From positions 1 through 27,967 of IMG/VR virus record IMGVR_UViG_3300035698_002204: 27,967 nt of DNA, one strand, 5' to 3'. Of this stretch, positions 708-26,185 are shown piece after piece. The stretch comes from a virus. Numbering within the stretch: position 1 is the first letter of the stretch; every line of letters begins with the position of its first letter. Made by a program: the position numbers and the translations under genes. The notes beneath the pieces are model-generated. The model saw nothing but the letters and a program-made list of their open reading frames with translations. It made no database searches and had not been told where the DNA came from.

Positions 708-3700
708 CTAGTCCGGATTGATCAGACTGTTGTAACGGCGGCGGACCTGCGTCATCACCTTGTCCATACGCTCGGCGATCAATTCCATCCTGCGTTTCTT
801 CACTTCATCGTTCAGGCTTGAGGCCTCAACCTTGCGCTTCTGTTTGCGCAACTGGCGCAACTGGTTCGATGCCTTCTTCACCGCCGGTATCATGCGGTAT
901 TCAGGCGTCTTCCTGATCCGCCGAACTTCTGCGGTGTCGCCTTGCTGCCGAAACAGATCATGCTCGCGCTTGACCAGTTCGACCTCATTGCTCAACTCAT
1001 AGTACAACTGCTGGTCTTGGCGTTCCGATTTGCCGCCAAACACCTTGCGGGCAAACGGGACTTCAAACGTCTCCATGGGTTGACCCATCCACCATTTGGT
1101 CAACGCATTGCTGGATCTGGCTACGAAAGCGCCGGCACCACCGAACACGGTGTCTATCCAGTAATCCATGGTTTCAGGGCTGATATCCACCCAGCCCGGA
1201 CGAACCTCGTTGCCGCCGGTAACTTCGTTCACAAACGCAGCAGTTCTCTTCGACATCACGCTCACGCTGTTCCAGTAGCGTTGCGAGTCCGGCTTCTCCT
1301 GACCATATCTGTTTTCAGGCATGATCGAGCGACCGAGCCAATCGCGGTTTGCATAGATGTCCACAACCGGGTCAAGTATCGTCGGCATCACCATCCGGGT
1401 CGGGTCGTCGGAACCGCCAAGCGGGTTGAAGGCGTTGATAACGGTCTTGCCGACATTCAGCGCCGACTGCACGGGGTCTTCTGGCCCAAACGTCGCGGCG
1501 GCAGTCTGCTGCCCGATGACATGGAACAGATTGTAACCCCACGGCAACGGTATCATCGAGTAATTGCCTGACCCGTCCGGGTACATGAAGATGAGATTGC
1601 GCTCCTTGATCCAGAACGGGATCTTGTCATAGTTGTTGGCATCGTCGTCGTCATCGCCGCCAACCATGCGATTGTAGAGGTCGAGCATGAAGCTGGACGC
1701 CGCAATGGCAAGAACGATCTTCTGCACCTTGGGGTGCTTCATGGCCTGCAGCATGCGCACCGAGCCCTGAATGCCGGCGTTGTAGAACAGATACAGCGCA
1801 TTGGCTGTGGCGCCCCATTCCCCGCGGCGATTGAAGTTCACCGTCAGTTCGCGCGCCAGGCTGGCCGCCTTTGCCCTGCTCACGCCTGCCTTGCGGGCAT
1901 TCACATAGGTGGAGAGGCGTACCGCGTTCTCGACCGTCATGTTGGCATTCTCAATCGATTTCTTGATCACGCGGCCCACTTCCAGGACCGCCTCGGTCTT
2001 GCCGCCGTTGAGGCGCTTGATGGCGCTGCCCAATTCACGCTTGTGCTGATCGACATCGTACAGGCTCAGCCAGCCAATCTTGCCGCCGGCCGCCTTGAAC
2101 TCGTGATAGTATTTCTCCCAGTCGGTGTTCTTCCTGTTGTTGAGACCGCCCCATACACCCCGACCGGCCTTGATGATGTCACGGGTCACGTTCTTGTGGA
2201 TGCCCTTGATCTCGGTCTGGCTCAGATTGATCTGGGCCGTCTGGAAGTCCCGGAGGAAGTTGGAGATCGTGAACGGCGGATTGAGCGCAGTGTTCATGTA
2301 GGAGAGATAGCGATTGACGCCGTGCAGCAGCTTGATAACGGAAGTCAGCGCCACCTCGTCCAGCCCCTTCATCGCCTTGGCTATCAGTGGATCATGCACC
2401 TTGATGTAGGTGGGCTCGCCGCCAATCTTGACGGACACGACATCGTCGGCCTCGCGTTCGACCACCCAGCGCTCACGGACCAGCCATGGCGGGGCGTCCG
2501 GATCAAACCGGGCTGCGGGATTGTCGACCTTGTACTTCTGGGCCGTCCTGCGGTTGATTTCCCATAGGGTCGGGTCCTCAAACCGCTGCACCAGGCGGAG
2601 AAACGTCTTCAGCACCCGGTTCTTCTCGCCGCGAATGATGGCCTGCTGGGCCTGCATCAGAACGTAGGAGAGCGGGCTGTCGGCCTGCGTGGTGCGTCCG
2701 TAGGCGTGCTGGGCCTCTTTGCCCCGGATATCGAACTTGCGCCCGATCTGGGGCCTGTCTGCCGTCTTCAGCTTGTGTTCATCGGCCTCCCATCCCCGCA
2801 GAGGCACGTAATGCTGGTACATGACGCGCCAGGCGTCGTGCATTTCCTGCGAGATCAGCCCGTCACGCAGCAGATCGCGGCGTGTATTGGCCAGTATCTC
2901 GTCGACATCCTTTGCGATGTCCTCCAGTGCGTCGAGTTTCCCCTTGGCCTTGTACTCTTCAATGATCTCATCGGCCTCTTTGTCAGTGATGCCGGAACCG
3001 GCTTCCGGCAGGTTCGGATTGCGTTCGGCGATGACGCGGTTTCGTTCCGGCGCATGACGCGCATACAGGAACTCGTCGACCGACTCAAGGTCGAGGTTGT
3101 GCGACACGATCTTCCTGACCAGCGGTTCAATGAAATCGTCGTTCAGCGCCTCGTTGCGGTGGCCCGTCTTGCCGGGGTAGAGGGATTCCGCCAGGTACAC
3201 ATCCTGAAACTCGTCCACGCCTTCGGGTCCGGCCAGCGATTGCTGCATCCGCTGCACCTCGATGAACCGGTCCTGAAACTTGCGGCGGGCCAGTCGTGTA
3301 GCATCACCAACCCGACCGGATATGCGGGCCATGTACCGCCTGGCACTGGCTTCCAGCGTATCTCTGCTGGTGAGACGTTCCTTTGCGGCCAGTATGGCGT
3401 GGTTGCTCGTGTCAGGCGCGCCACCCTGCCTCGATGCCTGTTGCTGTTTTGCCGCCAGCCTGTATCCCCTGCCGCGCGGATCGGATTCCCGCGTCGCCAT
3501 GCCGCCCTGCTCGATGCGTTCAAGTATCTGCCGGCTTGAGGTGAACCCCTGCCCATGAAGATAATTGGCTGTCTGTTCGAGTATTTCAAGCAGCCTCCTG
3601 AAGATGTGGCCTATCCGGTTGGTCGGAGCGTCCCTGGTCAGCCAGTAATCGGCAAAGGCCTCGGCGACGGCCTCTTCCAGCAGCAACTCGTCCATCTGCT

Positions 3701-6700
3701 CACGGGTGATATCAATGGACTGTGAGTATGCCTTGCGATAGCGGTCCTCGATCGCATACTTGTCCATCCACACGCCTTGCGCCATGCGCGACAACACGAT
3801 CCATTCAGGCCGGGAGATTATGCCGTGCTGGCGCAGGACATGGATGGTTTCGTGACGGATGATGGATCGCGGGTCCATCTTGGCGTTGAGCGAAACCCTG
3901 ATCAACTCCATGCCGGGGTCGTACTGGCCATAGCCACCACTTATTTCCCCGGTTTCCAGCGATATCCGCTTCTTGTGGCGGCCAAGCACCCGGTTCGCTA
4001 TGTCCTCGATCTCGCCAATGATGGCCTGGGCGCGTTCCGGCTGGATGGCGAACCTGAACGGGTTCTGCCCGAAACCGGCCCGAGACGAAAAAACCGACCT
4101 TCCGGTCGGTTCTGATGATTGCGTTCTGGGGCTCGCCGTTAGCGGCTGAATGCCTTTTTGTAGTAGGCGCCGCTCTCTTTCGCCCTTTGCCTTAGTGACG
4201 TAATCTCTGAGGGCGTCAGCGTCTCTGTAGTTGAGGATGTGGGCCGCTTCGTCTGCGTTGAGGGCGGATGGCTCGACGCCGAATTCTTCTCTGACAACAT
4301 TTCCGAACCTCCCTTCGATTTTCCTGATCTGCGCATTTGCAGCAGACCCTACACCGGATCTGCTTCGGCTGACAAGGGTAACCACCCCTGCCACCTCGCC
4401 GCCGCCGGCAATGATGTGGTTCGCCATCTCGGACAAAGTACCACCCATGACGGTGACATCATCAACGATGACATACTTGCGGCCAGGCTCGACGGGACCG
4501 TCGAATACGGGCCTTGCCAGCAGTCGCTCCATTGGCCTTGCGCCTGTGTGAAACGCCTTGTTTGCCTGAACCATGTCATAGGTCACCGCACCGCCTGCGC
4601 GCTCGGCCAGCCACGTTGCCGTAGCGGTGGGGATTTCATTGTGTCCCGACGCTTCCTCTGCCAGTACCGGGGCATACACCACGTCCGGGCCGAACGCCGC
4701 GCGAGCCTGATCTGCATGGCTGTCATCGAGCAGATCCATGATGAGCCGCGCCGACGCCTCGACATCACCCGCCTTCGCGGATTGGTATTCGGCGTGTTTG
4801 GTCAGGTTCCCCAGGCCCGGCAACAAGGCAACGGCAGGCATGTCGACCGGAAACCCGGACTTGCGCGGCGTGGCCTGCGCGTCGCGGCTCGCCATGGACA
4901 ACGGGGCCTCTTTCTTCTGGCCGATGATTTCCACCGCCTTGTCCTGGTCGCTGCGGGTCTCGAAGACCGCGCTGTGGTCAATCATGGCGTCAAGGATGCG
5001 TGCGGCCTGACCTCGGGACCCTCTCCACCGCATGCGGTTGCCGACCGTGGCAAAATCATCGTTCGCTGCGTCGCGCACGCTGGCTTGCAGGAAGTACCTG
5101 CCGCCAGTCGCCCTGCCCTTGGGCAGTTCGATCTCGTACTCCGAGCCTGACCGGCTCACCGTCACCATCTTGTCGGTGCTGGCGACTTCAGCCTGGCCGA
5201 CTGCCGACATGAGCTGGATGACCTGATCCGCCGTCTTGAACCGTACCGGCTGACCGGCAAGGAATTCCGACTCCTTGAAACTCTGCGGCATCAGAATGCC
5301 CTGACGCACAGCACCGTTGATATCGGAGAAGTTCATGATCTGGCCCGGAGCCATCTCGAACCCGGCAACGATATTTCCCGTCATCATGTATCGTTGCTGG
5401 CGTCCGGTGGTCGAGGCATGCTTGAAGGCCTCTATCACACTGGTCGGCGAGTCCAGCCGTGATGCCGGCTCAATGAGCATCCCGTCCTGGTCTGCCGTTG
5501 GGTTGGCGGGCGTCAGGACGGCGGAGAACGGTATGGTGATGTCACGGGCATTGTGCGGCACGGCCAACTTCAAACGCCAGCCACTGAGCGCGAGCGGGCT
5601 CTTGGCGCGTCCCTTGCGGAATACGTCGACAACAACGGCAGGTATCTCGGTGCCGTCCTTCATGGTTAACTGAATGTAACCGCCCGGTTGCGCAATTGAA
5701 ACGATCTCGTTCCATCGGCTGGCAATTTGATCGCCTTCCGTGCGCATCTTGGCCTTGGCGTCTTCCTTCTTCCGGTCCTTGACCTCGGATGTTACCCATG
5801 CCTGGTGCTTCTCTATCCACTCGTTGCGCAATGAGGAAAGTCTGGCCCGCTTGCCGCGCTCGGCGCTGGCCAGCACGCCGGTCGGCGTGTCGCCGGTCAC
5901 GTCCGGCATTGCCTCCTTCAGCGCCTCGGCCAGTTCGTCGGGCGACATGGCAAGGCCCTGCGCATCGATCTCCACCCGTTCCAGATTGACGGCCTGCGCA
6001 AACGGGCTCGGCCCTTCCGGCTCCTTCATCGTGGAGGCATCCAGCGTTTCCGCATTCAGATCCACGAACTTTGCCTCAAGATCATTCTGGCCGGTCTTGT
6101 CCAACTGCTCGATAAGTTCGGTATAGGTCTCCTGAACCGCATCGAGGAACTTCTGCTGTTCGGCTGGGGCCAGCATGACCAGCTTGCCGGTTGCCTTGCG
6201 CGCGAAGTCCTCTTCCAGCGCGCCCTCCAACCGCATTGTCATGGCCCATTGCGGGTTTTCGGACAGAACGTGGGACACGACCTTGTCGCCGTACTTGTTA
6301 AGAAAATCGACCGCATCGGATGACAGGGCCGATTTCCGGCTCGCCGTGGTATTGGCCGACAATGACGCCATTTTCTTCGCCAGAACCGCCGCCGGGCGAG
6401 CCTCTGCCGGGATGTCGGCGACAAGCTGGGTGTAGGCAGGCAGATTGACCTGCCCAGTCCGGTTGATGCGGCCAAGCATCTGTACGTGGGTATCGATATT
6501 GCCTTCGGCCTGGATGATGATCATCCGCCGCGGGGTCTGGTCCTTGAACTTGGCGGACGTGTGCAGGGACAATCCTGTTGACCCGGCCCGGTTCAGGATC
6601 AGCACATCGATATCGCCGCTGTTGAACTGGTTCACGGTGGATCGACGGCCGGCGGGCTTGATTTCGCGTGGCGGCCGGATTTCGAATGTCGGCGTACCAC

Positions 6701-9700
6701 CGCTGTAGTCTATCGAACTGGTGCGCCCCGTGATTTCGCCAACCTTGTATCCTGCCTCAACCAGCCGGTGCTTGACGTGATCGATTGGCGATATCGGCAC
6801 CCGGGGGATTTTGCGGATCGCGGCGCGCGCATCCTCGTAATACCGCTGCACAGATCCCGGCATCGCCGATTCCGGCATGACGTAGTGAAGTTTCTCGTCA
6901 CCAAGCTTCACTGTGATCCGGCGGGTCCGGTCCAGATAGTTCTCCACCACATCGGCAAATGACAGATCAATCGCATCACCGGGCGACAGTCCGTTCTCCA
7001 GGACATACGTGTTAATGAACGCGCCCATGGTATTCCCCACGGTCAGTACGGGCTTCTCGCCGGCCTTGATGCTGGCAATGGCGCGATCAGCGGCTACATC
7101 GGCCTTCAGGGACAACAGCATCTGGCTGACGATATTGTGCATCAGGCTGGTGAAGTTGGTCGAGGTCACGCCGACATTGCCGGTGGCGCTGTCCATGGCC
7201 ATCCCGCCGCCGACATCCTTGGTATGCTGGTCTACCCAGGACTCCCAGGCATCGCTGTCTTTGAGTTGCTCCTCGGCATGGACTATGTTTTGCAGCGATG
7301 TGACGAATTCCGCATAGGCGCCGGCATCGACCGGAGAAGTCTCCATGTCATAGGAAATGCCCTCATATGACCGCTCCCGGCGCACGTACTGCCCCGCATC
7401 GGCCAGCATGGACGCCACGATCTGCTGCATCGGCACGCCGCCTCGCGCGATGGTGGGGCCCAGGTTCTTGATGTCTTCGACCGCATCACCGAGATCGGTG
7501 CGCGCGTACAGGTCCATTCCGTCAGGCCGCTTGGCGTAGGTCGCAGACGAGAACATGGTTCCCTTGGATGCCGCGACGGTCTGGCGGACGAATGTGGCCC
7601 TGTCAGGGGCTTTCGGCACCCCTTCCTTGGTCTTGCCCGGTCCCCAGCCTTCCGATGAGGTGCCAAAGGCGTTGTGGGACTCGTCCAGCACGACAAACGC
7701 GCGTGGCGCGATGCTCTGGATGAACCTGCGCCGGTTGGTTTCGCCGCCGCGTATGGTGTTCATCTGGTCATATGTGGTGAAGATGATGTCCACGTCACCG
7801 AGACCATTGGCCTCTATGTCGGACAACTGCCGGTCCAGTACGGCGGGACCACCGCTGGTCAGGAACCTGCCGCGCCTGGAAGGCACCTTCTCGCGCTCGC
7901 CTGCAGGTGCGTCGGCATTGCGTTCCTTGATGTCTTCGGCCTCGTTGAACCAGTCCAGCGCATCGTCATCGAGCGGGACACTGGTGGACGGGTTTGTCAT
8001 CACTGCGTTGACCGGGCGGCCAAGCAGTTCAGGCATGCCGATATCGTTGAGATCGCGGATCATGTCGCCATACAGGTTCGGCTTTTCAGTCACGAATATC
8101 GGAGCCATGTCGTTCAGCCTGGCCCAGCGCAGCATGCCGGCCACGACACGCCCCTTGCCGATGCCGGTCTGGTCGCCAATGATGAAGGCCTTGCCCTTCG
8201 CCGCATTGGTGATGGCCAGCGCTATCGCATCGATCTGCTCCGCACCAAAGGCCTCGTTCAGGCTGCCCTGATCGTATTGCAGCTGGTCGGCCACAAACGC
8301 ATCGACGCTGCCGTGTGCGCCTTCCACGGCCATCAGCGCCTTGGCGGCGGCTGACTGCATGTTGGACGGGATCAGGGTGTTCAGGGATGTCTGGTTCGAC
8401 GCTGCGGTGTAGGAGACCTGCGGCTTTACGTCATTTCCGCGATCAGGACGTGGTTGATCAGTTCCATCGCGCTGTCCGCGCTGCCTGGTGGCCATCTTGT
8501 CGCTAAGAGTTGGTCCAGATTGGAGTTTTCGTAGATCAGCGGGTTTTCTTCCAGGACGGTCGAGGCGAAGTTCTGAGGCTGATCCATCTGCGGGCTGCTC
8601 AACAGCATCCCCTCGTCTTCCATCACCTTCGCTATCTCGCGGGCCTCCGCTGTCCAGTTCGGGCTGGCTTTCAGAAGGTTTTCGAGCGCTGTCGTCAGCG
8701 AGTCCAGATACTTCTGCTTGTCCACCGATCTTCTCCTTCAGGTTCTGCCAGTCAAAGAATTCCTGCGGGACCTGTGCCGCCGGCAGCTTCATGTCTGACT
8801 TGCCGCGACCGTCGATGACAATCACATCAACCGGCCAACCCGCACCCTGACGCTCGTATAGCGAGCCGTCCACGGTGAAATGGTCGACCACATTGTAGCG
8901 CGAATACAGCCTGCGGTAAAATTCTCTTTTCTGCTTCACATTGTAGGCGTTGCCGCGCTCGGTCACGTTCTTGATCTTGTTGTTGATTCCGCCAACGATC
9001 ATCACCGCCCTGCCGTTGTCGGGCATGGCCTCCAACGCGTTGAGCGCGATGGCGTGATCGATCGCTGTGGTGGTGAGGTCGTCTGCGGTAAACTCCTGCG
9101 AGCGGCCCTTGTCGTCCTTCACCGCGCCAAACGGCGGGTTCATGATCACCACATCAGCCGCACCGTTGGCCCTCACGATACCGGGTTGCGGTCCCGGCAG
9201 CAGGTTCTGCGTGACCTTGAAGCCCTGCTCACGCAGTTGCCCGGCCCTGATGTCGCTGATCTCGTTCGCGGTGACATTGCCCGGCGTTGCTGCGGTTACC
9301 AGCGCGCCGTTGCCTGCCGTGGGCTCGTAAACCTTCGTGGCGGGTCCGATGCCGGCCAGGTGCTGCGCCAGATAAGCCAGCGGAACGGGTGTGGAATAAG
9401 CCTGGTCGGCCATTGATTTCGAAGTGCGCACCCCAAGCTTGGGCTGGCGTTGGTACAGCGACACAAGGCGGTCATAGGTTATTCCGGCGTCCCTCCCCCG
9501 CTTGCTGCCCATATCGATGATGTCGCGGGCAACCTGCACCAGCGCCAGTTCGATTTTTTCCTCAAGTTCCTTTGCAAAGGCAGTGCCGCTTTCGACCGGG
9601 AAACCCTGCTCCTTGGCGAATTTGCGAGCCTCGGTGATGGTCTTGAAGCCTCCGTCCTGATCCATCAGGCGCTCCCGGAAGGCCTCTATCAGCGGGTCGG

Positions 9701-12700
9701 GATCGGTTGCGCCGGGCTTGTCGACGGGCTCGGTCGCGCCCTTCACCGCACTGAACATGTCGCCCTGGTCCATGCTGTCGCCGAACAGGCCGCCATCCAT
9801 GGGTTTCTGGTCGGCCTTTGGTTTCAGCGGCGCATCGGCAGCGTTCTGCGTCGCGCCGCGAACATCGCGCTCGGTGCCGGGGATAACCTCTTGCGGCTTG
9901 CCATCTGCACCGGAGTCGGTTGCGGGGGCGGTCGGGTCGGTCTCGACGGTCAGGTCTGGCTCGTTCTGCCTGCCGCCTTCGCCAGCGTCCGTGCCAGTGT
10001 CGCCTTGGTCTTCAGCCTCTTCGCGTCGCGTGGGCTGGCGGCCTTCTTCGCGGCCTGGCCCAGCCGCTTCGCTGCTTTCAAATGGGTCTGTCGGGAGATT
10101 TTCACTGCGCTCACCTATGTCAAAAGGAATGTCATCGGCTTCATGCCCGACGCCAGCATCGCCATCGTTCTCGATGGCCTCGATCGCTGCGCGCTCCATG
10201 GCATTATCCATGATCTCGCCCTGCGAGACAAGTTCGGCGGCGCGCGCGATGTCCAAAGCCGCCCAGTTCGGCAGTGTTGTACCGCTTGCGGTCAGGAATT
10301 CGTCAAGCGCAATCATGAAATCAGCGCCGTGCGCCTCCAGTACCGCGCGTTCTTCAGGCGTGCTGAACCGGTCAAGCAGGTGGTCCTGATCGGCCTGACC
10401 GTCAAGCTTCTGCTGCTCGGCAATATCGGATTCCCTGACCTGCTTGTCACCGCTCGCGTCAGCCCTGATTGCATCAAGCAGTTCGCGGATCGTTGATGTC
10501 GCCAGGCCATCACCCCACGGCGTGTCGCGCAGATAGCCGTTTTCCACCGCCCATTCGCGCGCCTCGTCCAGCGTCATGCCGCCGCTGGTGCGCACAAGAC
10601 GCCCGCCCGGACCAAAATGCTTGTCCAGGTCCATTGCGGCCAGTTCGCCACCATGGTCCCGGATACCCCCGGCACGGGTCAGTGCTTCGATCAGGCCAAC
10701 GGGCTTCTTTGATTTGCCGACCCGCTGAAACTTGCCGGATCTGGTGTAGATCAACCCGCCATCCTTCACCGTCTCCTGAAGCAATCCGGCAGCGGTTTTG
10801 ACGTTTGTGCCAATGGCCTTGGCAACCTTGTCGATTGCCAGTGACTTGCCGGATTTCAGGTGTTCTTTGTACCTGTGTTCAACAAGGGCCTTGATGGCTC
10901 CCTGTCTGTCAGGAACACCCATATTGGTCGAAGCATGTTCTCCAAATACTGCGTCGTATTCCTCGGCCAGGGCATCGTCATCCAGCGACTGAAGCTGCGA
11001 CGGCTCGTCTGGCGCGCGCTTTCCCCCATCTAGTGCAGCGTCTGGTTGAGACGTTGCGCCTCTTCCACCGTCTGTTCCCCCTTCATCACCGTCCCCACGT
11101 ACAACAACTCCATCTCCACCGCCTGTTGTGCGTACTGGAACCCGATCCGCTGGTCCGCGCTCTGCGCCTGCTGTATTGCCACCTTGATCGCCTTGCGAAC
11201 CTCCCACATCGCCATCAGCTGCGGGTGCTTCAGTGCCTTCAGCATTGCCGGCCTCCTTTGTGGTGTCGCCCTTGAGCCAGGTCTTGAATTCATCCATCGA
11301 CATGCGGGTTACGTTGCCGATGCGATCCACGCCCTTGCCGTCGCTGAAGGCGTAGACATACAGGCCAAGCGCCTTGGATTGGTCGTCCTCGCCCAGAATG
11401 ACCTTGTGTTCGTCGAATTTTCCGGACTTCAGGTCCATCTGATCGACGATGAACACAACATCACTTTCGGGATTATCCCCGATATACACATCCACCTGGT
11501 CGCCATCGGCACCCGTGGTGCGCTTCACGTAGCCGTAGTGGGCAGGCATCTCGACTTCCCACGTCTCGCCATCAGAATCCTTGCCGGTGCGCATCGACCC
11601 CTTCGGGTTCTCAATGGCGATATCAAGCCCCTGCATCCTGACATGCGACTTCTTGTAGTTGCCTGCGGCCTTCTGGCCGTCCGTAGGTGCCGTCTCGACG
11701 TGCTGTGCCGCCGTTTCAAGGTCCTCGGCGGTGACAACCTGCTTGGGCTCGTCCCTGCGCCCTGCGAGTTCGGCAGCGGCCCTGCCTTCACGGTCGGCAA
11801 GGGCTTCGTCCGGCGACATCTGCACAACCTGTGTTCCGGGACGCTGAAACGCCTCCATCACACCGCTTGCCTCGCCGGATGTGGTCAGCGTTTCACGTAA
11901 AACATTGCCCTGTTCATCCTGCTGGCGCACGATGGTGTCGCCATTGGCCGGCTTTCCGGTGCCCGAACCGGTGATGATACCGACAATCTCCTGCATGGGC
12001 CTGCCATTGTCCCTTGCCTCGGTTGCGATATCTGCAACCTCCTGGCTCTCGGCAACGAGAATACCGCCGCGACCGTCGAAGTCTTCAATCGCCACACCTG
12101 CTCCGGTAGCCTCGTTGAGTTTGCCGGCCTTTTTCACCTGCTCGACGGTGGCGCGCGGCATGTAGACGCCGGAGCGTTCATTTTCAGGGTCCTGCATGTC
12201 CCTGGTCTGGGCAATGATGTCGGAGGATGGTTCGCGCGTTGGAGCCTCGATACCGGCCTCCATGGCGGATTGCACCTCGTGGGCGAATTCTTCATCGCTC
12301 ATCGAGGTGATTTCGTCGCGGCTGTACCCCTGCTCCTGAAGGATGGCTTCAGCCTGCTGGCGGCGTGCGGTCTCGGTGCGCTTGTCCACCTCGACCGGAC
12401 TGCCGGGCAACGCCCTGCCGGCAACCCTATTCACCGGCTGCTGATCCCCCTTGGCATCAACATTGACGCTCCGCTCTATGCGCCTGCGTTCGGCATCCTG
12501 TTTGCCTGCGCGATCGATGTCGCCGGACTGGGACCTGTTGTATCCGGCATCAACGGCCTCTGCGCCAGTCGAGAACGCCATGCTGCCAAAGAACCCGGCG
12601 GCCGCGGCGTTGATCATCTTGTCGGCCAGCGTTACCAGATCCACGTCCTTGCCGGTGCCGGTCTTGGCGATGGTCTCCTGCAACCCTTCCTGCAGGGACT

Positions 12701-13838
12701 CCGTAAGGGCCTCCTTGCCGCCGGTGCGAACAATGCTCATGAGGCGTCTGGCTATGGTCTTTTGCAGTTCCCGCTTGGCGTTGCCGGTAAACTTGGCGGC
12801 GATCTCGCTGGGGACCACCGTGTCCAGCATGGACATCGCGCCACCGCCGACAATGGAAAGCTGCGACCGCAATTTCCGGTCGTCATCCCCCATACCTTCT
12901 TCAACCAGCGCTTCACGCATGGACCCGACATTCAGGATGTTGGATGCAGTGAAGGCTCCCACGCCTGCGCCTATCTTGCCGCCCCATTTGCCCATGACGC
13001 GCTTGCCCATGGCGCTGCCGGTAACGCCCCCCAGTACAGGCAGCAACATGGAGCCTGCGCCCTGCCCCGCCATGGTCTGCGCGTAATCGACAAAATCCTG
13101 CCAACTGCCGATTTTCTGCAACTTGTCGACACGATCCGGCGCGATACCGGACCCGGCTTTCTTCTCAAGCTTTTCGAGGTCGTGCGCGCCGATTTCCATC
13201 AACTCGACATTATCGACATCGTCGGACAGGTCCGCGAATGTCCGCAAGGTCTCCTTGGCAAGCCGGATGTTCTGCGAGCCGGCGCTGCGGAGAAACGAAT
13301 TGGTGAAATCCCCGTAATCCTTGACACCATCGCCTCCGGCAGCCTTTGCCTTGGCCACCTCCCCTTCCACCCATTTCTGATTTTCAGCGATGCGTCTGCC
13401 GACTTTGGACCCGCCTCGCCCACCAAGCGCCTTCGATATGCGTTCGTCGTCAATCGGAACAGGGTCGCCGCTGAGCGCCCCGGTTTCGTCGCGCGGCACC
13501 TGCCAGATGGAGCCATCCGACCAGCGGGCATACTCCTTGCCGTCGATCATCTTCCATGCCTTGGTGTCGGGATGGTTGCGAATATCAGGGGTTTCCGGCT
13601 GGCCCGATGGCGTCAGGGCTGATGTAGGCTTGCCGTTGGCGTCGAACGTCTGGGGCTTGGGTGATGCCGGATCAGCCGGCTTGGCATCCCCCGGAGTAAG
13701 CCCGATGCGACCATAGAAGTCGTTGCGGTCCATGTCGGAATAGAACTTCTTGTGCAGACCGTCTGCAAGCTGCTGGTCGGAAAGGTCCTGGTACTGCGGA
13801 TACTTCTCGCGAACCTGCTGTATCGTGATGCCAGCCAT
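708..13838 (-). CDS. Giant polyvalent (DarB-like) multi-enzyme virion protein, 4,376 aa
   Basis: This single uninterrupted frame encodes a protein of roughly 0.48 MDa. Domains in order: a short N-terminal helical module (1-45); a Gly/Ala-rich hydrophobic region (about 255-310, again near 407-425) like those of ejection proteins; an inorganic-pyrophosphatase-like domain (about 725-850, Asp778/780/783 in a DGDxxD motif); an N6-adenine methyltransferase (motif I EPTAGNG near 1505, catalytic NPPF 1567-1570); a Strawberry-notch-type SF2 helicase (GxGKG with Lys1895, DESH 2052-2055, GRxxR near 2457); a phosphoribosyltransferase (DD 3126-3127 in VIVDDVTVMGGT); a zincin-like metallopeptidase (HETIH 3329-3333, possible third ligand in the EExxAE stretch 3388-3393); and a long helical C-terminal part resembling LPD38. 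Polyvalent proteins of this type, including P1 DarB, are packaged in the virion and injected to protect phage DNA and act on host targets. The ATG overlaps the previous stop (TAATG), so translation is coupled. Individual activities are inferred from motifs. Confidence 0.93.
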   Translation of the reverse strand: MAGITIQQVREKYPQYQDLSDQQLADGLHKKFYSDMDRNDFYGRIGLTPGDAKPADPASPKPQTFDANGKPTSALTPSGQPETPDIRNHPDTKAWKMIDGKEYARWSDGSIWQVPRDETGALSGDPVPIDDERISKALGGRGGSKVGRRIAENQKWVEGEVAKAKAAGGDGVKDYGDFTNSFLRSAGSQNIRLAKETLRTFADLSDDVDNVELMEIGAHDLEKLEKKAGSGIAPDRVDKLQKIGSWQDFVDYAQTMAGQGAGSMLLPVLGGVTGSAMGKRVMGKWGGKIGAGVGAFTASNILNVGSMREALVEEGMGDDDRKLRSQLSIVGGGAMSMLDTVVPSEIAAKFTGNAKRELQKTIARRLMSIVRTGGKEALTESLQEGLQETIAKTGTGKDVDLVTLADKMINAAAAGFFGSMAFSTGAEAVDAGYNRSQSGDIDRAGKQDAERRRIERSVNVDAKGDQQPVNRVAGRALPGSPVEVDKRTETARRQQAEAILQEQGYSRDEITSMSDEEFAHEVQSAMEAGIEAPTREPSSDIIAQTRDMQDPENERSGVYMPRATVEQVKKAGKLNEATGAGVAIEDFDGRGGILVAESQEVADIATEARDNGRPMQEIVGIITGSGTGKPANGDTIVRQQDEQGNVLRETLTTSGEASGVMEAFQRPGTQVVQMSPDEALADREGRAAAELAGRRDEPKQVVTAEDLETAAQHVETAPTDGQKAAGNYKKSHVRMQGLDIAIENPKGSMRTGKDSDGETWEVEMPAHYGYVKRTTGADGDQVDVYIGDNPESDVVFIVDQMDLKSGKFDEHKVILGEDDQSKALGLYVYAFSDGKGVDRIGNVTRMSMDEFKTWLKGDTTKEAGNAEGTEAPAADGDVGGSQGDQGGNTAGAERGPADRVPVRTTGGGDGVVVRGDGDEGGTDGGRGATSQPDAALDGGKRAPDEPSQLQSLDDDALAEEYDAVFGEHASTNMGVPDRQGAIKALVEHRYKEHLKSGKSLAIDKVAKAIGTNVKTAAGLLQETVKDGGLIYTRSGKFQRVGKSKKPVGLIEALTRAGGIRDHGGELAAMDLDKHFGPGGRLVRTSGGMTLDEAREWAVENGYLRDTPWGDGLATSTIRELLDAIRADASGDKQVRESDIAEQQKLDGQADQDHLLDRFSTPEERAVLEAHGADFMIALDEFLTASGTTLPNWAALDIARAAELVSQGEIMDNAMERAAIEAIENDGDAGVGHEADDIPFDIGERSENLPTDPFESSEAAGPGREEGRQPTRREEAEDQGDTGTDAGEGGRQNEPDLTVETDPTAPATDSGADGKPQEVIPGTERDVRGATQNAADAPLKPKADQKPMDGGLFGDSMDQGDMFSAVKGATEPVDKPGATDPDPLIEAFRERLMDQDGGFKTITEARKFAKEQGFPVESGTAFAKELEEKIELALVQVARDIIDMGSKRGRDAGITYDRLVSLYQRQPKLGVRTSKSMADQAYSTPVPLAYLAQHLAGIGPATKVYEPTAGNGALVTAATPGNVTANEISDIRAGQLREQGFKVTQNLLPGPQPGIVRANGAADVVIMNPPFGAVKDDKGRSQEFTADDLTTTAIDHAIALNALEAMPDNGRAVMIVGGINNKIKNVTERGNAYNVKQKREFYRRLYSRYNVVDHFTVDGSLYERQGAGWPVDVIVIDGRGKSDMKLPAAQVPQEFFDWQNLKEKIGGQAEVSGLADDSARKPSESQPELDSGGPRDSEGDGRRGDAVEQPADGSASELRLDRPGRKPADLRKLQSGPTLSDKMATRQRGQRDGTDQPRPDRGNDVKPQVSYTAASNQTSLNTLIPSNMQSAAAKALMAVEGAHGSVDAFVADQLQYDQGSLNEAFGAEQIDAIALAITNAAKGKAFIIGDQTGIGKGRVVAGMLRWARLNDMAPIFVTEKPNLYGDMIRDLNDIGMPELLGRPVNAVMTNPSTSVPLDDDALDWFNEAEDIKERNADAPAGEREKVPSRRGRFLTSGGPAVLDRQLSDIEANGLGDVDIIFTTYDQMNTIRGGETNRRRFIQSIAPRAFVVLDESHNAFGTSSEGWGPGKTKEGVPKAPDRATFVRQTVAASKGTMFSSATYAKRPDGMDLYARTDLGDAVEDIKNLGPTIARGGVPMQQIVASMLADAGQYVRRERSYEGISYDMETSPVDAGAYAEFVTSLQNIVHAEEQLKDSDAWESWVDQHTKDVGGGMAMDSATGNVGVTSTNFTSLMHNIVSQMLLSLKADVAADRAIASIKAGEKPVLTVGNTMGAFINTYVLENGLSPGDAIDLSFADVVENYLDRTRRITVKLGDEKLHYVMPESAMPGSVQRYYEDARAAIRKIPRVPISPIDHVKHRLVEAGYKVGEITGRTSSIDYSGGTPTFEIRPPREIKPAGRRSTVNQFNSGDIDVLILNRAGSTGLSLHTSAKFKDQTPRRMIIIQAEGNIDTHVQMLGRINRTGQVNLPAYTQLVADIPAEARPAAVLAKKMASLSANTTASRKSALSSDAVDFLNKYGDKVVSHVLSENPQWAMTMRLEGALEEDFARKATGKLVMLAPAEQQKFLDAVQETYTELIEQLDKTGQNDLEAKFVDLNAETLDASTMKEPEGPSPFAQAVNLERVEIDAQGLAMSPDELAEALKEAMPDVTGDTPTGVLASAERGKRARLSSLRNEWIEKHQAWVTSEVKDRKKEDAKAKMRTEGDQIASRWNEIVSIAQPGGYIQLTMKDGTEIPAVVVDVFRKGRAKSPLALSGWRLKLAVPHNARDITIPFSAVLTPANPTADQDGMLIEPASRLDSPTSVIEAFKHASTTGRQQRYMMTGNIVAGFEMAPGQIMNFSDINGAVRQGILMPQSFKESEFLAGQPVRFKTADQVIQLMSAVGQAEVASTDKMVTVSRSGSEYEIELPKGRATGGRYFLQASVRDAANDDFATVGNRMRWRGSRGQAARILDAMIDHSAVFETRSDQDKAVEIIGQKKEAPLSMASRDAQATPRKSGFPVDMPAVALLPGLGNLTKHAEYQSAKAGDVEASARLIMDLLDDSHADQARAAFGPDVVYAPVLAEEASGHNEIPTATATWLAERAGGAVTYDMVQANKAFHTGARPMERLLARPVFDGPVEPGRKYVIVDDVTVMGGTLSEMANHIIAGGGEVAGVVTLVSRSRSGVGSAANAQIRKIEGRFGNVVREEFGVEPSALNADEAAHILNYRDADALRDYVTKAKGERERRLLQKGIQPLTASPRTQSSEPTGRSVFSSRAGFGQNPFRFAIQPERAQAIIGEIEDIANRVLGRHKKRISLETGEISGGYGQYDPGMELIRVSLNAKMDPRSIIRHETIHVLRQHGIISRPEWIVLSRMAQGVWMDKYAIEDRYRKAYSQSIDITREQMDELLLEEAVAEAFADYWLTRDAPTNRIGHIFRRLLEILEQTANYLHGQGFTSSRQILERIEQGGMATRESDPRGRGYRLAAKQQQASRQGGAPDTSNHAILAAKERLTSRDTLEASARRYMARISGRVGDATRLARRKFQDRFIEVQRMQQSLAGPEGVDEFQDVYLAESLYPGKTGHRNEALNDDFIEPLVRKIVSHNLDLESVDEFLYARHAPERNRVIAERNPNLPEAGSGITDKEADEIIEEYKAKGKLDALEDIAKDVDEILANTRRDLLRDGLISQEMHDAWRVMYQHYVPLRGWEADEHKLKTADRPQIGRKFDIRGKEAQHAYGRTTQADSPLSYVLMQAQQAIIRGEKNRVLKTFLRLVQRFEDPTLWEINRRTAQKYKVDNPAARFDPDAPPWLVRERWVVEREADDVVSVKIGGEPTYIKVHDPLIAKAMKGLDEVALTSVIKLLHGVNRYLSYMNTALNPPFTISNFLRDFQTAQINLSQTEIKGIHKNVTRDIIKAGRGVWGGLNNRKNTDWEKYYHEFKAAGGKIGWLSLYDVDQHKRELGSAIKRLNGGKTEAVLEVGRVIKKSIENANMTVENAVRLSTYVNARKAGVSRAKAASLARELTVNFNRRGEWGATANALYLFYNAGIQGSVRMLQAMKHPKVQKIVLAIAASSFMLDLYNRMVGGDDDDDANNYDKIPFWIKERNLIFMYPDGSGNYSMIPLPWGYNLFHVIGQQTAAATFGPEDPVQSALNVGKTVINAFNPLGGSDDPTRMVMPTILDPVVDIYANRDWLGRSIMPENRYGQEKPDSQRYWNSVSVMSKRTAAFVNEVTGGNEVRPGWVDISPETMDYWIDTVFGGAGAFVARSSNALTKWWMGQPMETFEVPFARKVFGGKSERQDQQLYYELSNEVELVKREHDLFRQQGDTAEVRRIRKTPEYRMIPAVKKASNQLRQLRKQKRKVEASSLNDEVKKRRMELIAERMDKVMTQVRRRYNSLINPD
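8426..8725 (-). CDS. Candidate overprinted gene in the methyltransferase-helicase linker (99 aa)
   Basis: This frame lies wholly inside the giant gene, shifted +1. It begins with GTG preceded by AAGGAG at 7-base spacing. The product is acidic and largely helical (MDKQKYLDSL, then a TALENLLK helix, then a TAEAREIAKVMEDEGM helix), with no membrane segment, and has the mixed composition of a real protein. The giant protein is a Ser/Gly/Arg/Asp-rich linker here (about residues 1705-1805), between the methyltransferase and the helicase. That contrast suggests the +1 frame carries the main selection. No family is recognised. A chance frame is possible, but the ribosome site and composition make it less likely. 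Confidence 0.6.
   Translation of the reverse strand: MDKQKYLDSLTTALENLLKASPNWTAEAREIAKVMEDEGMLLSSPQMDQPQNFASTVLEENPLIYENSNLDQLLATRWPPGSADSAMELINHVLIAEMT
9950..10105 (-). CDS. Candidate overprinted gene, basic helical protein (51 aa)
   Basis: It starts at GTG (10105) with AGGTGA 5 bases upstream, a full match to the anti-Shine-Dalgarno core. The product is a strongly basic Ala/Lys/Arg helix (segments HLKAAKRLGQAAKKA and LARTLAKAAG) and would be a small nucleic-acid-binding or structural peptide. It lies in the +1 frame of the giant gene; there the giant protein is a Glu/Gly/Thr/Arg-rich linker (about residues 1246-1297) preceding the methyltransferase module. No homologue is recognised with certainty. 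The short length lowers confidence, but ribosome site, composition and the parallel with the two other linker frames support it. Confidence 0.55.
   Translation of the reverse strand: MKISRQTHLKAAKRLGQAAKKAASPRDAKRLKTKATLARTLAKAAGRTSQT
11030..11245 (-). CDS. Candidate overprinted gene in the linker after the InPase-like domain (71 aa)
   Basis: The ATG at 11245 is preceded by an AAAGGAGG sequence at 6-base spacing, among the strongest ribosome sites in the window. The product is helical and amphipathic, starts MLKALKHPQL, and contains QQAQSADQ and GEQTVEEAQRLNQ. It is in the +1 frame of the giant gene, which at this point encodes a Gly/Asp-rich linker (about residues 865-936) with runs such as GGGDG and GDGDEGG. 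The overprinted product has the ordinary protein composition while the linker does not. The function is unknown; an in-frame start 48 bases further upstream is possible but lacks this ribosome site. Confidence 0.65.
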   Translation of the reverse strand: MLKALKHPQLMAMWEVRKAIKVAIQQAQSADQRIGFQYAQQAVEMELLYVGTVMKGEQTVEEAQRLNQTLH

Positions 13839-20077: not shown

Positions 20078-20719
20078 TCACTGCTCCCAATACTTCTCGT
20101 GACGTTCCGAGCCCTGCAGGAGCCCGTTCTCGTCGTTGGCCTTGTCGATGGCTTCCATGGCGACGTTGAGCCAGTGGTCGCGCTCCGCCTTGTCCTTCTT
20201 GAACGCATACGCCCAGTACAAACACGCCGCCTCCAGCATGTTCGGGTATCGATCGGTCAGGAAATTGGTTTCGTTGGTCGTCTCCACCAGTGCCGGCAGG
20301 TGCCGCATGAACACGAAGCGGTATGGATAGGCCTGGTCGGCCTTGTAATTGAAATACAGTGTATCCCCGACGATCATGTAGGAGCTTGGTGCAGCGACCT
20401 CGAGCGTGCTGGTGTCGTCGACATATATCCTGCTCTCGAAGTGCTGGGAGTCCAGCAGATCAATGGGACCGCCATTGCTGCCGGTACGGCGCAACGATAT
20501 CGGCTCCATCAGGCCCTCGTCTGCCATGGACAGGGTTGTGTCGCCGGAGGCAATAGTGCCGGTCTTGATATGCTTCATCTCGCGCGTGCGCAGGTGCTGG
20601 TAGATGAACGCCTGTGCTTTCGTGATGACCGATGCGGCCGGGACCGTGGAGTCGTTGACCCAATTCCTGATCGAGCCGTCAACCGTCTTGAGCCCGGCCA
20701 GCACCGTATAGCTGGTCAT
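20078..20719 (-). CDS. Head-tail adaptor protein, 213 aa
   Basis: The sequence follows the pattern of adaptors of short-tailed phages: an initial helix (SIRNWVNDST), a helix with ITKAQAFIYQHLRTREM, beta strands in the middle, and a helix-rich end with YPNMLEAACLYWAYAFKKDKAERDHW. Such a protein forms the dodecameric ring under the portal. The ATG overlaps the preceding stop (TGATG). Its neighbours, acidic protein upstream and fibre/hub downstream, fit a connector block. Confidence 0.8.
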   Translation of the reverse strand: MTSYTVLAGLKTVDGSIRNWVNDSTVPAASVITKAQAFIYQHLRTREMKHIKTGTIASGDTTLSMADEGLMEPISLRRTGSNGGPIDLLDSQHFESRIYVDDTSTLEVAAPSSYMIVGDTLYFNYKADQAYPYRFVFMRHLPALVETTNETNFLTDRYPNMLEAACLYWAYAFKKDKAERDHWLNVAMEAIDKANDENGLLQGSERHEKYWEQ

Positions 20720-21237
20720 CAGGCCAGTTCCACGCCAAGCTGCGAGGCCAGGGCGACCTTGTTCTTCGGCTTGTCGCCAAACTCGGTTTCAGCCAGTGCC
20801 GCTGCCTTGTGCCACTGCATCCGAATATCACCGGCAAGGTATCCCCTGAGCGCAAGTATGCCGTCACTGACCGGGGCGGCAGTGACTTCAGGGGCATCCG
20901 CGTCATTGGCAGCAACTTCGCCCTCGTCGCTGATGGTGTCGTCGGACTCGTCAGGGATAGTAGCCGGGTCGATAGTGCCGTCCTTCGCCTCCATGACGGG
21001 CTTGGCTTCAGCAACCGGGTTTTCGGGTGCGGGCTTGGGCGCATCGGGCTGGGGTTTCGTGACAGGGACGCCGCTCTTGCTGCGCCTGGATGCCAGTTCA
21101 ACGCCCTGTGCGGTGCCCATGTCGAACTTCAGGAAGTCACCGTTCACGTCATACAGGCATCCGTCCTGCTGGTAGAAGGCGTCCTGGTAGGGCGGGATGA
21201 TTTCGCCAAACAGTTTCTGTCGGTTCAGTGTGTTCAT
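20719..21237 (-). CDS. Acidic hypothetical protein (172 aa)
   Basis: The family is not recognised. The N-terminal 45 residues are ordinary (NTLNRQKLFGEIIPPYQDAFYQQDG). The middle, about residues 60-120, is disordered and rich in P, A, E and D. The last 45 residues form a folded-looking helical part (LRGYLAGDIRMQWHKAAALA). The ATG at 21237 has GAGGA upstream. It is the first gene after the terminator at 21251-21281 and is coupled to the adaptor by a TGATG overlap, so it probably acts with the connector. Confidence 0.7.
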   Translation of the reverse strand: MNTLNRQKLFGEIIPPYQDAFYQQDGCLYDVNGDFLKFDMGTAQGVELASRRSKSGVPVTKPQPDAPKPAPENPVAEAKPVMEAKDGTIDPATIPDESDDTISDEGEVAANDADAPEVTAAPVSDGILALRGYLAGDIRMQWHKAAALAETEFGDKPKNKVALASQLGVELA

Positions 21238-21250
21238 TGTGTCCTCATTG

Positions 21251-21281
21251 AAAAAGACCCACACCCATTCAAGGGTGCGGG
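21251..21281 (-). terminator. Intrinsic terminator
   Basis: On the minus strand a 9-bp stem (with one G-U pair; arms around CCGCACCC and GGGTGTGG, 6-base loop) is followed by TCTTTTTC. It separates the capsid block from the connector/tail block and overlaps no gene. Confidence 0.8.
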
Positions 21282-21312
21282 CCTATTCTTCAGCGTAGCT
21301 CAAAGCAGGCTT

Positions 21313-21495
21313 CTACTTTTTCGACGTGTTGGAGAGAGAGTGGTCGACGTTATTCACGCCGCCACCCATGGGAGTGCTGCGTTCCTTTGCAGCTGAGCCG
21401 GTATAATCACTGTCATCCTTGCCGAAGGGCGTGTTGAATTTGCCCTCCTTCTGGACGCCGTGATTGTGTGACGGCGATTTGGGATTGCCTTTCAT
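21313..21495 (-). CDS. Small hydrophilic protein (60 aa)
   Basis: The product is rich in G, S, N, K and D, with no predicted membrane segment, and looks disordered (KEGKFNTPFGKDD). AAAGGAG lies upstream of the ATG at good spacing. It lies between another small gene and a terminator at the end of the capsid block. The composition suits a small head-associated or packaged protein, but no function is recognised. Confidence 0.6.
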   Translation of the reverse strand: MKGNPKSPSHNHGVQKEGKFNTPFGKDDSDYTGSAAKERSTPMGGGVNNVDHSLSNTSKK

Positions 21496-21530
21496 CAGAA
21501 AAGCTCCTTTGAGATTTGATCCACCGCTGA

Positions 21531-21698
21531 TCAGTAGCGGTAGTTCGGGTGGTCGCGCTCAGTCAGCCCGTCCCGTTCGGAACGATGCGGCTTGACCTGA
21601 TCGAGCCTGTCGAAACCATCCTTCGCGATGTCCCGGCTGGATTTACCCGAACCTTCGGTGTCGCGATTTCTGGTCAGTTCACGGCGGTCGCCATACAT
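21531..21698 (-). CDS. Small charged protein (55 aa)
   Basis: This frame is short but well supported: AAGGAGG lies 6 bases before the ATG, and the frame fills the gap between the decoration-type gene and the 60-residue gene. The product is highly charged (YGDRRELTRNRD, DGLTERDHPNYRY), about 20% Arg plus Lys, with no membrane segment. No family is recognised. It is likely a head-associated small protein of the same operon. Confidence 0.65.
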   Translation of the reverse strand: MYGDRRELTRNRDTEGSGKSSRDIAKDGFDRLDQVKPHRSERDGLTERDHPNYRY

Positions 21699-21737
21699 TG
21701 CGAGCCTCCTTCATGTGGGGCGTGTCAGGTCCCCGGC

Positions 21738-22163
21738 TTAGTTGTCCCAGTCAATGATCATGAACGGGGTTGCAATACCGGCAGGAGTGCCACCGGTAGG
21801 CGATGTCGCGGTCAGCATCACGACGCCATCGGCAGGGATGGCTTGTCCTGCCGCCAGCATCAATGCCGCATAGCCGGCATCGGTCGGCTTGTATGTGGTG
21901 CGAACCGACTTGCTGCCGGAGTTCACATCGGCAGTACCAAGCTGGAACTCTTCACCATAGGCATCGGCATCGGAACCGTTGCCCACGGCGAGAGTGGCTT
22001 CGAGCGTGTCGTCGGTGAACTGCTCCGTGATGTGTTCAACACCATAGTCGATCAGCCGGCCCTTCTTACCCTTCGGGCCGGTGATGGCATAAGTATCGGC
22101 TCCGGCACCAAAATCGAGCGGCGGAAACGTGTACTTTTCCCGGTTGATGGGATTGTCGTACAT
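21738..22163 (-). CDS. Probable capsid decoration or head-stabilising protein, 141 aa
   Basis: It is beta-rich (DTYAITGPKGKKGRLIDYG, then TLEATLAVGNGSD, and a closing PFMIIDWDN strand). Size and position directly after the major capsid gene fit head decoration or stabilising proteins, but I cannot name the family. The ATG at 22163 has AAAGGAAG upstream; an upstream extension to 22202 reads through the terminator-like hairpin and lacks a ribosome site. Confidence 0.65.
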   Translation of the reverse strand: MYDNPINREKYTFPPLDFGAGADTYAITGPKGKKGRLIDYGVEHITEQFTDDTLEATLAVGNGSDADAYGEEFQLGTADVNSGSKSVRTTYKPTDAGYAALMLAAGQAIPADGVVMLTATSPTGGTPAGIATPFMIIDWDN

Positions 22164-22186
22164 GACAACTTCCTTTCTCAGAATTG

Positions 22187-22213
22187 AAAGGGCGGGCCAC
22201 AAGCGGCCCGCCC
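22187..22213 (-). terminator. Terminator-like hairpin after the major capsid gene
   Basis: A perfect 9-bp stem (GGGCGGGCC and GGCCCGCCC, 6-base loop) lies 15 bases after the capsid stop, followed only by a short TTTC on the minus strand. It may act as a partial terminator or a 3' stabiliser for abundant capsid mRNA. Confidence 0.65.
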
Positions 22214-22227
22214 ATGTCAGCGTTCGG

Positions 22228-23220
22228 TTATGCCGCGCTATCCCATTTCCAGATGCGGGCGTGACGCTCGTCAGGGTGCATCAGGCCGAAACCACCGAGA
22301 TAGTAGTAGGCGATGCCCTTGGCGCGGCCATAGTCGCCGGCGATGCGGGCACGGATTTCCTCGGGGATCACGATGGCCTCGGTGACGGTATCGGCACCGA
22401 AGAAGAACGCCCAGGACGACTTGCCGTTGTTCCAGGCATCAGCCGTCGCAGTGCGCGCATTGAAGGTCGTGGAGTCGATGGCACCGCCTTTCGGAACATA
22501 GTTCTGTTCCACAAAGCGCATGTCCTCGTACTTGCCGACTTCACCGTTCATGATGTGCATCAGTCCGGATTCTGTGTACTGATAAACCCCTTCCAGGTTG
22601 TTCTTCATGTTCCGGTAGGTGGAAGGATGGGCAATCGAGAAGTAGCAATCGTCCATGTAAGGCGGGACATCGGACTCCTTCATGTCGTCCGAGATCGCCT
22701 TGATGTGATCCTTGCCCAGCGCAACGTTGTTGGTTGTCGCGGTTGAGCCGTTGGTGGTCTTGGTGATCGCCGTGGTTGACGTACCACTGGCTGGGGCCAC
22801 GCGGATCGCCGTGGCGTTGAACTGCTCGAACGTCAGGGCATCGAACGTCTTGCGGGCACGATGCTTGAGCGCCTTGTCGATAACGCCGACCACATCATGC
22901 TTGCCGAGCGTCTTCACCTTGCCGGTGAACGGAACCGATTTACCGTACTCAGTCACGGTCAGCGAGCGCTGGACGATCCTGAAACCATCCTCGTGCATCG
23001 GCTCGTTTTCGGCCAGTTCGTCGTCAGTGTCGGCCAGGTTCTCGTAGACGTTCCAGGAATACGATTCGCCAGCGCCAACACCTTTTTCGGTGCCGTCTTC
23101 GGCGTCTGCAAATTGCCGGAACTTGGTGAGCGGCTGTACTTCCATGCGCAGCGTATCGCTGAGTTCGTCGGAATACAGATAGCCACCTTCAGCCGGCACA
23201 GACCAAAGTTGTCCAGTCAT
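22228..23220 (-). CDS. Major capsid protein, 330 aa
   Basis: The sequence has the pattern of a major capsid family of short-tailed phages (N4 gp56-like), probably HK97-fold. Typical parts are SVPFTGKVKTLGKHD, the segment around HPSTYRNMKNNLEGVYQY (about residues 195-215), FVEQNYVPKGG (about 233) and the C-terminal DYGRAKGIAYYYLGGFGL with a final KWDSAA. The length (330) is in the expected range. AGGAGA lies 7 bases before the ATG, an apt site for the most abundant virion protein. The scaffold-like gene lies 33 bases upstream and a hairpin follows the stop. Confidence 0.9.
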   Translation of the reverse strand: MTGQLWSVPAEGGYLYSDELSDTLRMEVQPLTKFRQFADAEDGTEKGVGAGESYSWNVYENLADTDDELAENEPMHEDGFRIVQRSLTVTEYGKSVPFTGKVKTLGKHDVVGVIDKALKHRARKTFDALTFEQFNATAIRVAPASGTSTTAITKTTNGSTATTNNVALGKDHIKAISDDMKESDVPPYMDDCYFSIAHPSTYRNMKNNLEGVYQYTESGLMHIMNGEVGKYEDMRFVEQNYVPKGGAIDSTTFNARTATADAWNNGKSSWAFFFGADTVTEAIVIPEEIRARIAGDYGRAKGIAYYYLGGFGLMHPDERHARIWKWDSAA

Positions 23221-23253
23221 GGGACTTTCTCCTAAGATTTGTGTGTTGGGGTG

Positions 23254-24528: not shown

Positions 24529-24874
24529 CTAGCTGTTCCCTTAGTTTGGCGTCTTCATCGGTCGCGATGATTTCGGTGAGTTCTTCAGCAGCGATGTCTG
24601 CATCGCCGCCGGCTTGGTAAATCCACACAATGAGTTGCCTGAACCGCGCGTAGCGGGCCTGCCATGCGATGGCCTGCGCAACGCCTGCAGGTGTCGTGAG
24701 ATCGGCCAGCAACAGGTTGCCGCCGGCTTCCACCGCGTCATCCCTCGCAAGTTCAAGGATCTTGTTGAGCGCGGAGTCCGGCGTGGAGAGCGCCATCATC
24801 ATGGCTTGCCCGAGCATGATCTCGCGCTCCAGTCGGGCTACTTCTTCCTCTTCCGGCCGCTCGTCCGTAAACAT
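24497..24874 (-). CDS. Hypothetical helical protein before the scaffold (125 aa)
   Basis: The family is not recognised. The product is helical and acidic (DERPEEEEVARLEREI, AQAIAWQARYARFRQLIVWIY), with no membrane segment. I chose the ATG at 24874 because GGGAG lies 6 bases upstream; an ATG at 24886 is in the terminator U-tract. It is the first gene after that terminator and overlaps the scaffold start by 32 bases, so it belongs to the capsid block. Confidence 0.65.
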   Translation of the reverse strand: MFTDERPEEEEVARLEREIMLGQAMMMALSTPDSALNKILELARDDAVEAGGNLLLADLTTPAGVAQAIAWQARYARFRQLIVWIYQAGGDADIAAEELTEIIATDEDAKLREQLDGRREPDFRD

Positions 24875-24886
24875 GGCGTCTCCCAT

Positions 24887-24913
24887 TAAAAAACCCCGCT
24901 CGGTGGCGGGGTT
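24887..24913 (-). terminator. Strong intrinsic terminator
   Basis: On the minus strand an 8-bp GC-rich stem (AACCCCGC and GCGGGGTT, 6-base loop) runs into a T-run of at least six. It lies 4 bases after the membrane coiled-coil gene stop, closing the surface-protein cluster before the capsid block. Confidence 0.9.
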
Positions 24914-24916
24914 GTG

Positions 24917-25291: not shown

Positions 25292-25332
25292 GTCGCCTCC
25301 TGAATCTTGATCCGCGCGCACGAAAGACGTGA

Positions 25333-25580: not shown

Positions 25581-25593
25581 AGTGGGCTTCCTT

Positions 25594-26172: not shown

Positions 26173-26185
26173 GTTGTACTATCCA

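Follow-up and report, generated by a model that had tools for sequence, protein, structure and literature searches.

The virus record IMGVR_UViG_3300035698_002204 was analyzed over its full length of 27,967 bases (the window), in which a single giant open reading frame (ORF) on the minus strand (708-13838) encodes a polyvalent protein of 4,376 amino acids. An original prediction, made from the letters alone, had proposed that three low-complexity linkers of this protein conceal small genes in a second frame; we refer to these frames as L1, L2, and L3. Comparison with relatives shows that the linker between the adenine methylase and helicase domains of the giant protein is a dual-coding segment, in which L3 (8426-8725, minus strand; 99 amino acids from a GTG start, in the +1 register) constitutes an entire small gene, equipped with a Shine-Dalgarno sequence and a start codon and belonging to a family conserved at this position. 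We consider L3 very probably a real, separately started gene. Read in the giant frame, the L3 segment would encode a disordered linker for which the avoidance of stops is the one strong constraint.

Conservation of and selection on the L3 frame

When the giant protein, the L3 product, or the L1 product was used in pattern scans of viral contigs, no matches appeared, and relatives had to be retrieved with a methylase plus helicase profile; this yielded 80 loci from viruses and 74 from genomes. The methylase–helicase linker presented the same picture in five distant homologues, carried by plasmids of cyanobacteria and Thalassospira and by one Bacteroides phage. The +1 frame was open over the linker in 139 loci, with a median of 134 codons versus 33 for the +2 frame; it was the longer of the two in all 139, contained at least 93 open codons in each, and was open in AT-rich genomes as well. 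The giant frame was stop-free over the same segment, and its GC content at third codon positions (GC3) fell below that of the methylase in 121 of the 139 loci. The L3 product of the window is connected to this family of more than 100 copies through its nearest relative, the product of locus L007 (blastp, 37.6% identity, E = 4e-19). The hidden gene ranges across Cyanobacteriota, Pseudomonadota, Bacteroidota, Thermodesulfobacteriota, and many phages. The original prediction, which spoke of small phage genes, understated the scope, as plasmids and bacterial genomes carry the hidden gene too.

To ask which frame the linker substitutions follow, we counted them by codon position in 34 pairs of relatives, with each locus used once and some being near-copies of others. 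Over the linker, positions 1, 2, and 3 of the +1 frame had taken 723, 612, and 1259 substitutions, respectively, and in the methylase, used as a control, the corresponding numbers for the main frame were 559, 398, and 1753. Because the third +1 position has the most substitutions, wobble in the linker follows the +1 frame, whereas wobble in the methylase follows the main frame. The +1 protein was more conserved than the giant-frame linker in 34 of 34 pairs. Rates per opportunity, obtained for 22 pairs, were 0.0619 for changes silent only in the +1 frame and 0.0196 for those silent only in the giant frame, with 0.0244 for changes silent in neither and 0.0758 for changes silent in both; the substitution-rate ratio in these pairs was 0.26–0.39 for the +1 frame and 0.8–1.25 for the giant frame. 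These comparisons indicate that the +1 frame is under purifying selection and that the giant frame over the linker is near-neutral. Across the relatives the +1 frame of L3 is thus unbroken, its start signal is conserved (see below), and selection falls on the +1 frame and not on the giant frame, as the original prediction would have it.

The giant frame is nevertheless not free to take stops, because the chance that it would be open over L3 given the +1 peptide is very low (P = 0.015 for the window, with a median of 0 across the 139 loci). Judged from these alignments, the linker in the giant frame is a passenger that is obliged to remain open. In this unusually clean case, the hidden frame is conserved and the annotated frame is its passenger, the opposite of how a disordered linker is ordinarily interpreted.

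The start signal of the L3 family

In the window, the Shine-Dalgarno motif AAGGAG (8733-8738, minus strand) lies 7 nt ahead of the L3 GTG. Motif and spacing recur in the relatives, where AAGGAG is found ∼7 nt ahead of an ATG across loci and the spacing between Shine-Dalgarno and start is about 7 to 10 nt. A Shine-Dalgarno (≥5 bases) before the start was present in 91 of 137 loci (66%), as compared with 170 of 3673 control +1 ATGs from the same genes (4.6%). The start codons at 138 loci were 130 ATG, 5 GTG, and 3 TTG, and in 93 of these loci a +1 stop lies within five codons upstream of the start. Together, these features point to a translation start of the family's own.

An internal Shine-Dalgarno can also stimulate frameshifting, and finding such a motif and the +1 register at one and the same position in every locus would fit programmed +1 frameshifting from the methylase frame, which would give a fused product of methylase and small domain and no free small protein. 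We consider this very improbable. The nearby upstream +1 stop leaves little room for slipping, the start codons are conserved, the Shine-Dalgarno spacing suits initiation, and the stand-alone copies described below possess their own start. Because the Shine-Dalgarno and start are conserved and a +1 stop lies so close upstream, internal initiation is favored over frameshifting, and the giant mRNA would most likely give rise to the free small protein through initiation at this internal start.

Gene finders allow one gene per stretch of DNA, which means that the L3 family is almost always missed by annotation. The sole record we saw with the hidden gene annotated is the Gloeobacter morelensis plasmid pGMOR1 (L005:3944-4393), in which the +1 ORF is gene WP_230844304.1. 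Here the helicase gene is truncated instead, being trimmed to begin at the end of the hidden gene, and most of the methylase region is unannotated in the table. This annotation raised the idea that the helicase is re-initiated at the +1 stop by translational coupling. A main-frame ATG near the +1 stop was present in 23 of 138 loci versus 21% expected, and ATGA in 3 of 138, and we rejected re-initiation as a general rule.

The small protein and its stand-alone copies

AlphaFold predicted a confident fold for the 99-amino acid L3 product of the window (predicted local distance difference test [pLDDT], 93.5; predicted template modeling score [pTM], 0.85) and for a long, 173-amino acid form with an N-terminal extension (pLDDT, 92.4; pTM, 0.89). 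The family product would be mainly alpha-helical and about 100 to 170 amino acids long. Its structure had no match in the PDB or in viral structure libraries, and comparison of the sequence with Pfam, NCBIfam, PHROGs, and PADLOC assigned it to no family and gave isolated weak matches only.

A search in which the small family by itself was run against 291 cyanobacterial genomes returned 51 places in 41 genomes, of which we read 30 loci. At 27, the small gene lies in +1 inside an unbroken methylase–helicase frame; two of these nested copies have a stop within the matched stretch of the small gene. The remaining three (L200:7613-8212; L202:7824-8426, minus strand; and a copy in L194) are free-standing genes with their own start, and in them the former giant frame has 15, 12, and 6 stops. 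Stand-alone homologues of the L3 product, which the original prediction had suggested looking for, therefore exist, and since their former giant frame is full of stops, they argue that the small protein is an independent protein and that the giant frame stays open only in places where the giant protein depends on it. The surroundings of two stand-alone copies were read and consist of ordinary chromosomal genes; capture by the host is a possible origin of these copies. The L200 copy is flanked by a response regulator and a Dps-like gene.

Codon statistics of the three +1 frames in the window

All three +1 ORFs of the original prediction exist as it described them, in the same register and with the starts and Shine-Dalgarno-like motifs it had named. 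L1 (11030-11245, minus strand) encodes 71 amino acids from an ATG preceded by the strong Shine-Dalgarno AAAGGAGG (11252-11259, minus strand) and follows the InPase domain. L2 (9950-10105, minus strand) is a K/A/R-rich frame of 51 codons with a GTG start and a Shine-Dalgarno-like motif. A frame-blind codon scan of the giant gene left the giant frame at L1, L2, and L3 only; the departure was clear at L1 and at L3 and slight at L2.

We were concerned that these could be chance ORFs, since G/D/E/S-rich low-complexity linkers in a GC-rich genome rarely have +1 stops. As a null model, the giant peptide was recoded 20,000 times with its own codon usage. Openness proved cheap, the +1 frame being open by chance with P = 0.60 (L1), 0.33 (L2), and 0.21 (L3); the openness of the +1 frames is unremarkable by itself. 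What is remarkable is the composition of L1 and L3. Giant-frame GC3 was 0.29 in L1 (expected, 0.71 ± 0.05) and 0.37 in L3 (expected, 0.73 ± 0.04), the two lowest values of the entire giant gene (mean, 0.73), and in both the codon score preferred the +1 frame; neither their GC3 nor their codon scores were reached in any of the 20,000 recodings. In L2, by contrast, GC3 was ordinary (P = 0.13), the codon score gave only P = 7.5e-4, and the encoded peptide is a run of residues rich in K, A, and R. No equivalent of L2 was flagged in a frame scan of the relatives' giant ORFs. L2 is therefore ambiguous as a gene, and a chance ORF may be its full story.

For L1 and L3 the codon statistics led us to reject the chance reading, and for L3 conservation does so additionally: its +1 frame is open in AT-rich genomes and selected, its product is predicted to fold, and a stand-alone gene exists. 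As an account of the hidden frames, chance ORFs retain almost no probability. The claim of normal protein composition in the +1 frames accordingly stood for L1 and L3 and failed for L2, and the claim that small real genes hide there is borne out for L3 by comparison, is likely for L1, and is ambiguous for L2. Homologues of L1 were absent from viral contigs, phages, the fetched loci, and 398 genomes of one order; we take L1 to be a probable second hidden gene of this kind, specific to its lineage.

Several points weigh against reading L1 and the L3 family as genes. At about one-third of loci, the start that we chose has a weak Shine-Dalgarno or none. Highly divergent copies (in Bacteroidota, Thalassospira, and others) were assigned by position and register, without a sequence match. 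Selection was measured in relatives and not in the window's own lineage, whose nearest relative is only 36% identical in L3. The case for L1 consists of its composition and its Shine-Dalgarno.

Distribution, methylase association, and origin

Methylase–helicase genes that lack the small gene fall into a single block (Pseudomonas, Cupriavidus, Vogesella, Acinetobacter, Competibacter, and Mesorhizobium), with further cases in Pleionea and Persicobacter, where methylase and helicase are encoded by separate genes. On a quick, unrooted tree of 80 helicases, presence and absence are explained by three changes; the ambiguous locus L125 was scored as present in this tree and excluded from the locus counts. 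Being unrooted, the tree fits gain and loss of the small gene alike.

At two loci (L135:6953-7381 and L142:4521-4937), a small +1 gene directly follows the methylase in the absence of the helicase or with a different C-terminal region in the helicase's place. Since the small gene is found beside the methylase even there, it appears to track the methylase. For the same reason we tentatively propose, as a possibility short of probable, that the small protein is a partner of the neighboring DNA methylase, either as an accessory subunit or as a brake. As a brake, it would restrain the enzyme up to the moment at which DNA and giant protein are delivered together; delivery of the giant protein into the host together with DNA is presumed by analogy with DarB of phage P1 (PMC5512222). 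The L3 family is a new protein family, with a confidently predicted fold, tied to a DNA methylase used in phage–host and plasmid–host conflict.

Three routes could have led to the present arrangement of L3. The original prediction offered read-through fusion, in which three once-separate genes, for the methylase, the small protein, and the helicase, fused and the one in the middle turned into a second-frame linker. The codon usage of L3, normal in the +1 frame and odd in the giant frame, is as this model expects; locus L082 shows a +1 gene followed by ordinary giant-frame domains; and the methylase and helicase of Persicobacter are two genes overlapping by 4 bases. No homologue of the small gene was seen between the two Persicobacter genes, however, fused methylase–helicase genes without the small gene exist (in Pseudomonas, Cupriavidus, Acinetobacter, and Competibacter), and the tree, unrooted as it is, needs three changes. 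Fusion is compatible with the data but rather doubtful, and insertion explains them equally well. By insertion, small mobile or ordinary genes would have entered an existing linker and survived there since their −1 frame was stop-free, leaving the giant frame uninterrupted. A recognizable phage HNH endonuclease in the +1 frame after the InPase of L062, with the giant frame open, is what this route would produce, and L1 is lineage-specific at the same after-InPase site; for L3, on the other hand, no pair of close relatives with an empty and a filled linker was found. We regard insertion as quite possible, if not yet probable. The third route is de novo overprinting, with the giant-frame linker present first and the small protein arising later in the second frame. 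This is a common route in viruses (PMC8227390), and L1 has no homologue anywhere searched. In L3, however, the odd codon usage and the disordered product belong to the giant frame, the opposite of the usual pattern, and the small protein has a well-defined predicted fold in several phyla, which makes de novo overprinting unlikely.

Hidden +1 genes in other giant genes

The frame scan of giant ORFs returned 20 hidden segments outside the methylase–helicase linker (one of them L1 of the window), 19 of which are in +1. In the HNH case above (L062:4496-4852 and on), the endonuclease matches phrog_3377 (8e-46) and belongs to a common phage family, relatives of which occur in 936 phage records. Bacteroidota elements, among them Bacteroides phage BS-TP4, carry a second small +1 gene, with the pattern MDN.E.MYWLA.VQQA.KGDKEAMEVLRQEDE.., in a different linker. 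Its six copies (L127:3107, L146:3293, L003:5531, L120:3377, L115:2681, and L118:2330), found as relatives of one scan segment, are all in +1 of the giant frame by arithmetic from the reported coordinates, and the single pair L127/L146 gave an indecisive substitution pattern (33/25/33). Two further +1 genes of 60 codons (L075:4325-4504 and L085:2969-3148), also inside giant genes, show 52% identity when their +1 frames are compared and 31% when the giant frames are. One giant gene carries two adjacent hidden +1 segments of 85 and 79 codons (L088:2587-2940).

The original prediction had suggested that linkers of polyvalent genes are a hiding place for small genes, and the HNH endonuclease, the Bacteroidota family, and the L075/L085 pair support it. 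Counting the methylase-linker family, at least four families fit, and we lean toward the view that the disordered linkers of polyvalent giants, be they from phages, plasmids, or integrated elements, generally serve as a habitat for small +1 genes, the set of which changes and whose products are independent proteins. If so, the sole cost to the giant frame would be staying open, and the small protein and the delivered enzymes would always be inherited and expressed together. The preference for +1 can be reasoned from the genetic code: in this register, a giant-frame stop would require a small-gene codon with T in third position followed by one that starts with AA, AG, or GA, whereas in the opposite register each CTG, ATG, or GTG preceding an A would stop the giant frame. 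A rule for finding more hidden genes is to search for linkers in which the third codon position is out of step.

Comparison with known nested genes

In phages, E within D of phiX174 and Rz1 within Rz are nested genes whose overlaps encode two functional proteins. L3 likewise lies wholly inside another gene, in a different frame and with its own start, but the giant frame over it is near-neutral and seemingly only a spacer. Cas11 is a small subunit made from cas8 or cas10d by internal translation, in frame with its host gene. The small accessory protein proposed here would similarly come from internal initiation inside a large enzyme gene; unlike Cas11, it is out of frame and has no sequence in common with the host protein. 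A close parallel in gene architecture is comS within srfAB of Bacillus subtilis, a small second-frame gene that is co-expressed with the giant modular gene containing it (PMC12915044). L3 too is a small second-frame gene inside a giant modular gene, but whereas comS is known from one host lineage, the L3 family reappears in one particular linker in different phyla and mobile elements, and its host frame is a disordered linker.

The giant gene and its surroundings in the window

The giant gene (708-13838, minus strand) has Pfam matches to InPase, AAA_34, Helicase_C_4, Pribosyltran, and LPD38. Directly upstream of L1 is the InPase domain (residues 721–856; 11271-11678, minus strand). The adenine methylase domain (residues about 1383–1690; 8769-9692, minus strand), located by PHROG DNA methyltransferase matches and alignment, adjoins a strawberry-notch SNF2-type helicase (6252-8198, minus strand; AAA_34, residues 1881–2170; Helicase_C_4, residues 2365–2529) in one polypeptide with LPD-type domains. 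A phosphoribosyltransferase domain (residues 3081–3161; 4356-4598, minus strand) and an LPD38 domain (residues 4068–4262; 1053-1637, minus strand), both from Pfam, follow. Because the InPase, methylase, strawberry-notch helicase, phosphoribosyltransferase fold, and LPD38 are all present, the giant protein is a polyvalent protein with a methylase–helicase dyad of the kind described by Iyer et al. in 2017 (PMC5512222). Like the DarB-like dyad of that account, it combines an adenine methylase and a SNF2-type ATPase with InPase and LPD domains; the overlapping gene is additional, and a word search of PMC5512222 finds no mention of overlap or linker. Elsewhere in the window, positions 20078-27125 hold a phage structural cassette with a major head protein, an SU10-type adaptor, and tail proteins, the head and tail genes lying on the minus strand.

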